A DNA stretch of 5,604 nt from Caldilineaceae bacterium (lineage in GTDB: Bacteria > Chloroflexota > Anaerolineae > Caldilineales > Caldilineaceae), in assembly GCA_012032975.1 (NCBI GenBank), contig JAAUPU010000252.1:1-5604 (forward strand). The letters are read 5' to 3'. Positions 1,697 to 5,178 of the stretch are shown here, one piece after another. The translations under genes and the position numbers were made by a program. Each line of letters starts with the position of its first letter. The stretch's first letter is position 1. Under the pieces are notes generated by a model. It had not been told where the DNA came from and made no database searches. It saw nothing but the letters and a program-made list of their open reading frames with translations.

Positions 1697-2248
1697 TCAG
1701 GAGTCGATATCCTCTTCTGCAAAAGCTTCGTCCGTTGACCCACCCGCGTGAGGCGGTCCAAACATCTCGACCAATTCATCCAACGTCAGCCACATGATGC
1801 GAGCGCCCGCATTGCGCAGATCCTGTTCTAGCTGTCGGCGCTTGCTTTCAGGCTCGCCCACGATGGTCACTTGATTGGCCTGGCGCGCCGCGGCCAAATC
1901 CTGCCCAACTGTGGGCTGCTCCAGTTCGATGAAGCGCAACAATGCCATCACCTGCGCGGGGCTTTGGGCGCCCGAGCCGATGAGCAGATAATGGCTGGAT
2001 TCATCCTCTAGGCGTTCAACCCGAGCATCAACAGCGTCTTGTTCGCCGCTCTCTGAGCCGCTCTCTGCGCCAACCGCTAGCTCTGTATCAAGAGAGTCAT
2101 CGACCTCGGTCGGCGTCTCTGCTGCGGATAGAATGGCCGGAATGATCTGCGGTTGAGTTGTGGCCGGCGCGACCTCCTCCGCGATGGGTTCGTCGTCAAA
2201 TGCCGATACAGGCTCGTCATCGCCGAACAGCGCGTCCGTCACTGACAA
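1697..2248 (-). CDS. C-terminal fragment: acidic linker and small alpha/beta domain of unknown function
   Basis: The frame has 183 codons from a TTG at 2248 with no Shine-Dalgarno, so it is most likely the tail of the large protein and not a separate gene. Residues 1-84 are low-complexity and acidic (FGDDEPVSAFDDEP, ESGSESGEQD). Residues 87-154 form a compact domain: HYLLIGSG, then a helix (AQVMALLRFIEL), QPTVGQDLAAARQANQVTIVG, a charged helix (ESKRRQLEQDLRNAGA) and RIMWLTL. The strand-helix pattern with VTIVG followed by a helix and a GA-hydrophobic strand resembles a small Rossmann-like or cell-wall-binding-type-2-like fold, but I cannot name the family. A second acidic tail (TDEAFAEEDIDS) ends the protein. 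TGA is at 1697-1699. Confidence 0.6.
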   Translation of the reverse strand: MSVTDALFGDDEPVSAFDDEPIAEEVAPATTQPQIIPAILSAAETPTEVDDSLDTELAVGAESGSESGEQDAVDARVERLEDESSHYLLIGSGAQSPAQVMALLRFIELEQPTVGQDLAAARQANQVTIVGEPESKRRQLEQDLRNAGARIMWLTLDELVEMFGPPHAGGSTDEAFAEEDIDS

Positions 2249-2256
2249 CGCCGACG

Positions 2257-2371
2257 ATCAGCCTCTCCGGCACAGGACCCATCAGAATCCGCCGCCACGA
2301 TCTCGTCGCTTCTGATCGGTGTACCATCGCTGCCCAGTGTCAGAGGGGTGGGCGAATCCGTCAAATTGCTG
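2257..2371 (-). other. Linker segment of the same protein in a third frame
   Basis: Between the TGA at 2361-2363 and the start of the last open frame, the coding reading moves to another frame: SNLTDSPTPLTLGSDG, then DEIVAADSDGSCAGEAD. It is rich in Ser, Thr, Asp and Gly, like a flexible linker, and blends into the acidic stretch that follows in the next frame. One missing base near 2256-2259 (after GCTGAT) joins them. The segment is weak as evidence on its own because linkers have little sequence signature. Confidence 0.45.
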
Positions 2372-3572: not shown

Positions 3573-3574
3573 AG

Positions 3575-4183
3575 CTAATTGACCTCGCGCGTGATGACGC
3601 CGTCCAGGGTCAAGCCGTCGATGCGGCTGCCCTGGCCCTGGACGCGGATGTTATAGGTGCCGAGGGGCAGGTCTACGAACCGGAAGCGCCCCGTGTCGCG
3701 CACCATGGTCACCCACTCTTCGCCATCTTCGCCGCGCAAAAGCACGACGACTGCGCCGGCGCCGCCAGCTACATTGCCCGAGATGACGCTCTTGCTGGCC
3801 ATGCTGTCCACTTCGGAAAAGTCCAGGTTGAGTAGCATCTCATCCTGATCTGGAGATAGCTCCACCGGTTGGGTGAAGGTGCTGTTCTCGGCGCGGAGCA
3901 GATAATGGCCCGGCAGCAGATCTGGCATCACAAATCGGCTGTTGATGTCCAGCGATGCGCGGGCACATTCCGTGCCATTCTTCTCCAGGGTCAGCACCCG
4001 CCGCGATCCAGCGTTGGCCACGGTGCCGCGCAACACGATGCGTGCGCCGATCCTTCCGCCGGCCTGCCACCTGCGGACCACCTTGGGTTCCGCTTTGAGA
4101 GCGCGCACAATGGGCAATGTTCGGCCTGGCCAGCGTTGGCTGTACCAGGCATGGCTCTCCCACCAGTCGCTGGCGCTGTCCAA
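3575..4183 (-). CDS. Middle fragment: end of the barrel domain plus two beta-sandwich modules
   Basis: This 202-codon frame continues the glycosidase-like protein after the indel near 4240. In the same frame, upstream of its first Met, the sequence reads RQAPDYYFCTGFWLLANGLL, clearly the continuation of the barrel. Residues 1-39 (SDWWESHAWYSQ, LPIVRALK) close the barrel. Two modules follow. Residues 46-122 contain GTVANAGSRRVLTLEKNG and LLPGHYLL. Residues 131-202 contain ISGNVAGGAGAVVVLLRG, DTGRFRFVDLPLGTYNIRV and LDGV. The G-x-V, G-x-F-x-F-x-x-L-x-x-G-x-Y pattern is that of carboxypeptidase-regulatory-like/prealbumin-like modules, which serve as structural or carbohydrate-binding spacers. 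The frame ends at TAG 3575-3577. Removing one base of AATT there continues the protein as NSCGGWDIRV. Confidence 0.65.
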   Translation of the reverse strand: MDSASDWWESHAWYSQRWPGRTLPIVRALKAEPKVVRRWQAGGRIGARIVLRGTVANAGSRRVLTLEKNGTECARASLDINSRFVMPDLLPGHYLLRAENSTFTQPVELSPDQDEMLLNLDFSEVDSMASKSVISGNVAGGAGAVVVLLRGEDGEEWVTMVRDTGRFRFVDLPLGTYNIRVQGQGSRIDGLTLDGVITREVN

Positions 4184-5178
4184 CAGACCGTTTGCCAGCA
4201 GCCAGAAACCGGTGCAGAAATAGTAGTCGGGCGCCTGTCGAAACGCTGGCTGGCGCCCATCATGATGCGGCAGGCCTCCAGCGTCTGGGCCATATGCAGA
4301 TCCGGCGTGGTGGCTGGATAGCGTGGGTCGATGTCCTCGCCGACCAGATAACCATTTTCCGTGGAGAGGATCGGGATACTGTGGCCGAGGTGGCGACGGT
4401 TGCGCGCGTCGAAATACTCATAGGCCAGCCAGCCGACCGCGTCATCCATCACAGTGGCGCCGGGGTTGCTGCGGTCGATGCGCAGACGGTTGACCTCGGC
4501 CAGCGTGCGCCCACGCCAGCCATCTTCTCCCCAAGGCTCTGCCGCAATCGTGCGATAGAAACGTTCGGTGAACGCGGCCCCCTCTTGGTTGCCGATGTCG
4601 TACGGATAGTCCAGCGGTCGGTTACGAGAGTAGTTGTGGATCGCCTGCCAAACCGGTCCGTTGAAGAGGTCGCGTCGCCCTCTGGCCACAATGCGGCCGA
4701 CCAGATCCCAGCGGCAGCCGGGCGAGAGCGCGGGCACGGCAGGCATTCCGCCGCGCTCCAAAATGCTCTCCATGTTGGCGATGGTGTTGTCCACGACCAG
4801 GTCGATGCCGTTGGCCGGCACGCGGCCGCCCTTCCATTCAGAGTCCAGGTTGGGTTCGCTGTTGAACTCGAAATAGCGCACGCCGGCGCGGATGAAGGCG
4901 TCCAGTTGGACGATATCCTTGACGCTGAGGGTGCTGGGGTTGGGGCTGGGGTGATAGATGCGCACGATCGGCATGATGCCTTCGGAGAGCAGCAACTCGG
5001 AGAAGTCGATAGCGCCGTCATGGTTGAAGACCTTGACCCATTTGACGCCCAATGCCTTCATCTCGGGCAGCCAGAAGTCGCGAATCTTGCCCAAACCCAC
5101 CGCAGACGCATAGCCAACCACCCAGTGCATGCCAATGCCTGTGTCGTTTGCCGGTCGCGGATACTCGTGCAGTTCCAT
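3991..5178 (-). CDS. N-terminal fragment: clan GH-A-like glycoside hydrolase domain
   Basis: The open frame is 395 codons, but only residues 1-313 (5178 to about 4240) are genuine; after that it is out of frame (Cys/Ala-rich nonsense). The genuine part reads as a TIM barrel: GIGMHWVVGY (14-23), ALGVKWVKVF (42-51), IMPIVRIY (68-75), RYFEFNSEPN (101-110), VWQAIHNYS (176-184) and IPILSTENGY (268-277). By analogy to GH5/GH39-type clan A enzymes, E108 would be the acid/base and E274 the nucleophile, with H181 near the active site. The residue just before E108 is Ser107, where clan A enzymes nearly always have Asn. There is no signal peptide, so a cytoplasmic location or non-classical export must be assumed. 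Family number and substrate cannot be assigned. Confidence 0.7.
   Translation of the reverse strand: MELHEYPRPANDTGIGMHWVVGYASAVGLGKIRDFWLPEMKALGVKWVKVFNHDGAIDFSELLLSEGIMPIVRIYHPSPNPSTLSVKDIVQLDAFIRAGVRYFEFNSEPNLDSEWKGGRVPANGIDLVVDNTIANMESILERGGMPAVPALSPGCRWDLVGRIVARGRRDLFNGPVWQAIHNYSRNRPLDYPYDIGNQEGAAFTERFYRTIAAEPWGEDGWRGRTLAEVNRLRIDRSNPGATVMDDAVGWLAYEYFDARNRRHLGHSIPILSTENGYLVGEDIDPRYPATTPDLHMAQTLEACRIMMGASQRFDRRPTTISAPVSGCWQTVCWTAPATGGRAMPGTANAGQAEHCPLCALSKRNPRWSAGGRPAEGSAHASCCAAPWPTLDRGGC

Follow-up and report, generated by a model that had tools for sequence, protein, structure and literature searches.

A conserved glycosidase-like gene of Caldilineaceae interrupted by about eight single-base frame changes, possibly uncorrected sequence errors

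The window, meaning the whole 5,604-nt stretch of Caldilineaceae DNA analysed here, carries on its minus strand one gene of about 1,160 codons, as judged from homologous single open frames, that runs from an ATG at 5178 to a stop at 1697 and is interrupted by about eight single-base frame changes. With a probability of roughly 0.55, we consider this to be one conserved chromosomal gene whose copy in a metagenome contig contains about eight single-base indel errors that were left uncorrected. On this view the breaks arose during sequencing or assembly, and the gene is most likely intact in the organism or was so until very recently. The intact product would begin with a clan GH-A-like glycosidase barrel and continue with a series of beta-sandwich repeats of the carboxypeptidase-regulatory-like kind, then a disordered linker and, at the C-terminus, a small alpha/beta module; it may have a glycan-cleaving role.

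Results

A single gene in related genomes

Between 5178 and 1697 the minus strand is divided among several frames, each open over part of the span. When genome contigs were searched with the 307 residues of the unbroken N-terminal part, ten homologous loci (L001-L010) were found, all in metagenome-assembled genomes (MAGs) titled Chloroflexi or Chloroflexota, Caldilineaceae, Anaerolineae or Litorilinea. One open frame of 1018-1243 aa, with the length counted from the preceding stop, covers the same span in eight of the ten (L002-L009), while the copy in L001 reaches the end of its contig at 943 aa and that in L010 is broken after 94 aa. The 307 residues share 75-82% identity with L001-L007, and the relatives start at a MELHEYPRP-like point that coincides with ATG 5178. 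The preliminary description had proposed one gene with these two ends and had named homologues existing as separate short proteins as the observation that would speak against it; the single-frame homologues and the tracking of frames bore this reading out. Its further remark that the corrected length is divisible by three carries no weight of its own, since how many corrections to make was a matter of choice.

Of the 46 genomes in the GTDB family to which one relative (G003) belongs, 40 gave a match (E 0.001). Close copies there are single open frames except in G010 (the same as L010), in G033, where pieces lie at two contig ends, and in G001, where the copy meets a contig end; the distant genomes G023, G024 and G025 show one TAA within a partial match. 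In L010, which stems from the CFX7 MAG, about 47 residues are missing and the frame changes within 864-1121, and the remainder is 91% identical to L003, so that this is perhaps a local assembly fault.

Position and number of the frame changes

The DNA of the window was aligned to a profile of 11 relatives, with frame changes allowed at penalties of -8, -10, -14 and -20. Without frame changes the profile score was 1367 and the alignment died at 4147, whereas a score of 2903 was reached with frame changes at -14. Penalties of -10 and -8 gave six single-base breaks up to 2412, near 4236, 3580, 3569, 3561, 3463 and 3414, which are accurate only to a few bases; five break sites remained at -14, and at -20 there were three together with a stop codon at 3577. 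The control consisted of 13 relatives whose first 3300 nt were treated in the same way; no break appeared in any of the 12 with an unbroken frame and one appeared in the broken L010.

The first break (4232-4240, minus strand) lies before the last barrel strand. Three further ones form a cluster at 3558-3582 (minus strand), where they produce the TAG at 3577 that is seen as a single stop codon at penalty -20; in our own reading of the sequence against the relatives, the residues between these packed gaps still appear to be those of the family. Frame tracking placed two more at 3460-3466 and 3411-3417, also on the minus strand. The linker varies too strongly among the relatives for the profile mapping to go past 2412. 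The open frame 1697-2248 (minus strand), which contains an alpha/beta module common to the relatives, is matched in frame by the C-terminal ends of seven of eight relatives in tblastn, which requires two more single-step frame changes within 2412-2248. These lie in the linker itself (2248-2412, minus strand), where homology does not place them and whose equivalent in the model of L003 (930-1046) is of low confidence, with a pLDDT of about 30. Of the seven indels proposed earlier, the presence of several single-base breaks and their net parity thus hold, and the count becomes about eight, six mapped and two in the linker. That no unexplained stop is left was confirmed at penalties of -14, -10 and -8 for the profile span up to 2412.

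The breaks had been said to fall in short homopolymers. Among the six mapped breaks, no enrichment was detected in comparison with the gene background for runs of at least two, three or four bases: all six have a run of at least two no more than 2 nt away, as does 82% of the gene, two of six lie near a run of at least three, against 25% of positions, and none of six lies near a run of at least four. This association therefore fails. It is not required of every sequencing technology. The chance that any three of eight uniformly distributed breaks fall within 24 nt was calculated post hoc as 0.008, and three breaks in about 20 nt with apparent family residues between them suggest a locally misread patch rather than separate mutations.

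Constraint on the broken gene

Constraint was assessed on a fixed tree that joined the window to 11 relatives, over 866 codons that remained after masking near breaks and removing gapped columns. Eleven of the 12 chosen relatives were used, L024 being dropped because a frame with the start motif was not found in it. The codons of the window were taken from an alignment path in which the profile row of L022 was mis-oriented; the corrected profile gives the same break positions at -14. The terminal-branch ratio of codon positions 1 and 2 to position 3, which is rough since third positions are saturated, was 0.057 for the window versus 0.055-0.098 in the 11 intact relatives. Of 235 columns that are invariant in the other 11 sequences, the window violates 6, and the leave-one-out counts of the 11 relatives were 0, 4, 6, 7, 7, 8, 9, 10, 15, 22 and 43. 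After 50 random substitutions had been simulated, the joint probability that no stop and no more than six new violations arose was 0.05. In neutral decay about ten substitutions per indel are usual, and when 80 neutral ones were simulated, ten for each break, none of 1000 runs stayed within six new violations while remaining free of stops. Relaxed constraint was thus not found in the gene of the window by the branch ratio or the invariant columns, and a very recent pseudogene would not show any. Since constraint matches that of intact copies, the breaks have come without accompanying substitutions.

Protein architecture and family

The unbroken N-terminal part (4237-5178, minus strand) probably forms most of a clan GH-A-like TIM barrel, as suggested by its identity to L001-L007, its invariant columns and the fold match of L003; the TIM-barrel fold was found on the predicted model of L003 rather than on the window's own protein. 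The conserved barrel starting at MELHEYPRP is present, and the repeats and the C-terminal module lie within one gene across the frame changes, as seen from the profile to 2412 and from the C-terminal matches, so that the gene belongs to a single-gene family of Caldilineaceae and Anaerolineae that combines barrel and repeats. The motifs N-x-E-P and T-E are invariant (N106/E108/P109 and T273/E274 in L003). Residues E108 and E274, recognised as invariant columns rather than by superposition on a solved active site, are candidates for the two catalytic glutamates of clan GH-A on strands 4 and 7, and a catalytic role of the barrel motifs may be inferred.

Members of clan GH-A (GH39, GH5, PslG) share 8-16% identity with L003 among the 50 matches listed. 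No glycosidase model for the barrel was found in Pfam or NCBIfam at the E-values used, and NCBIfam gave nothing above its cut-off for this region. The Pfam family PF13620 (CarboxypepD_reg) was above the cut-off in two pieces of the window and in L003 and L005; these repeats are a generic beta-sandwich and make no statement on function. As far as the models indicate, the gene codes for a clan GH-A-like barrel, so far uncharacterised, that is joined to carboxypeptidase-regulatory-like repeats. A search of solved structures by sequence with the N-terminal piece returned one match, an antibody chain with an E-value of 0.75, which was taken as chance, and the first Foldseek rank, 6fwv_A, had TM-scores of 0.07 and 0.15 with an rmsd of 40 and was not used. 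In the distant relatives P0029, P0030, P0082 and P0079 a barrel-like part is combined with Amidase_2 or NlpC/P60 domains, which may point to a connection with cell-wall glycans.

Other copies and split proteins

Pieces of the gene are stored in databases as separate proteins: two, 314 aa and 153 aa long, are listed on the 5604-nt contig and one of 251 aa on a 1,219-nt contig. P0083 and P0124 are proteins of the window listed on the 5604-nt contig, so the window apparently corresponds to a complete contig in the protein database. The 251-aa protein P0005, which has two member sequences and is listed on the 1,219-nt contig, is identical to the protein of the window across the first break, including the out-of-frame tail. 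Either the same reads were assembled twice or this break is real. The window's own 395-aa frame has no separate listing and may be the second member of P0005.

The protein P0001 (65,760-nt contig; 71% identity over 92% of the query) leaves its frame at the codon where the first break lies, shifting in the same direction, as judged from the protein sequence. In the N-terminal tree P0001 groups with L021, P0010, P0011 and P0022, apart from the window, with moderate support (76 at the node of P0001, 66 at that of the window), and common inheritance of this break was rejected on these grounds. By eye, P0002, P0003, P0007 and P0015 look split, and some pairs are listed on contigs of equal size, for example P0002/P0086 (525,944 nt) and P0007/P0090 (93,989 nt), from which the same contig was inferred. 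Such copies say nothing on the frequency of breaks, because the length filter of the protein search admitted only proteins of at most 1.75 times the query.

Genomic neighbourhood

An intact LacI-family regulator (592-1605, plus strand; Pfam LacI and Peripla_BP_3) is convergent with the broken gene and aligns with the neighbours in L006 and L020. Downstream neighbours were scanned in six loci, and four had a LacI-family gene, convergent in L006 and L020 and co-oriented in L004 and L016, while L003 and L005 had no match. At the other side, 5568-5604 (plus strand) is probably the beginning of a gene for a MoxR-type AAA ATPase, truncated where the contig ends, its 12 residues resembling the starts of divergent 317-aa neighbours in L002, L004, L005, L006, L007 and L020; the two of these six that were compared with Pfam (L002, L006) matched AAA_3. 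Since these neighbours are common to the relatives, the gene in the window occupies its normal locus and is no stray copy. The region 1-84 (minus strand) encodes the beginning of a lipoprotein-like signal peptide, truncated by the contig end and, in our own reading, with a lipobox. In the intergenic region upstream of the gene (5275-5345) repeated words of the ATTCGTG type were noted by eye and are absent from the repeat-search list; the repeat search in the window gave two-copy matches only, in which no role was seen.

The regulator is intact, as had been described, and its sparing had been taken as an argument for error. It gives no such support, because a pseudogene predicts an intact LacI gene too, and it is weak evidence against random error. 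If errors were uniform at 8 breaks per 3482 nt, the regulator would escape with a probability of 0.10, and with eight breaks uniform over both genes the probability of none in it or in the first 940 nt of the broken gene would be 0.010, both calculated post hoc.

Discussion

Indel frameshifts in long-read consensus sequences are documented (PMC9262707, PMC8812927), and the fragmented gene calls of such assemblies likewise arise from single-base indels that split one gene without substitution decay. Those cases are mainly homopolymer errors, whereas the breaks in the window do not follow homopolymers.

The main competitor, a serious possibility that we place somewhat below even odds, is a true and very recent pseudogene, in which function was lost shortly before sampling and several indels arose before substitutions accumulated. 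The recurrence of the first break in P0005 on the 1,219-nt contig favours it, and the sparing of the regulator and of the first 940 nt, the independence of the breaks from homopolymers and the usual locus, as local decay predicts, are in line with it. However, substitution decay is missing: about 50 neutral substitutions fit only if none of the six violations is background, and ten per break did not fit in any simulation run. Three gaps packed in about 20 nt would also be unusual for neutral decay. Sequence error is slightly favoured over a recent pseudogene because of this packing together with the lack of substitution decay. We also counted for error that other copies look split, such as P0002/P0086 and P0007/P0090, and against it the first break in P0005, the lack of homopolymer enrichment and the sparing of the regulator and the first 940 nt.

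An old pseudogene would account for several indels in one gene, but it is ruled out by the branch ratio and the few invariant-column violations, constraint being equal to that of intact copies, and we regard it as very improbable. The earlier preference for error over old decay thus stands in that the gene is not an old pseudogene, while the reasons given for it, homopolymers and the intact regulator, are weaker than claimed.

It is similarly doubtful, to a degree that leaves it hardly any weight, that the frame changes are used in expression, by programmed frameshifting or by a switchable site at the first break. The matching frame change in P0001, identical in codon and direction as far as its protein sequence shows, would agree with this, but P0001 does not group with the window (moderate support), so that the state is not inherited, and uninterrupted copies are the rule among close relatives. 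We know of no programmed precedent in bacteria for about eight shifts in one gene. Nor do we expect, other than as an outside chance, that the first break is a real recurrent frame-change site of the family, shared with the non-sister P0001 and acting as a switch; this break alone would remove the last barrel strand. Several separate short genes, as the stored 314-aa, 153-aa and 251-aa pieces might suggest, are refuted by the single frames at eight of ten homologous loci and by a first break that cuts a barrel domain, and have the least probability of all.

The observation of a gene carrying about eight probable indel errors is mainly a warning for annotation, since pieces of one gene are stored as separate proteins. 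It also points to an uncharacterised glycosidase-like family, located beside a MoxR-type ATPase gene in six of the loci examined. In one of these six, L006, a DUF58 gene lies behind the 317-aa MoxR-type ATPase gene.
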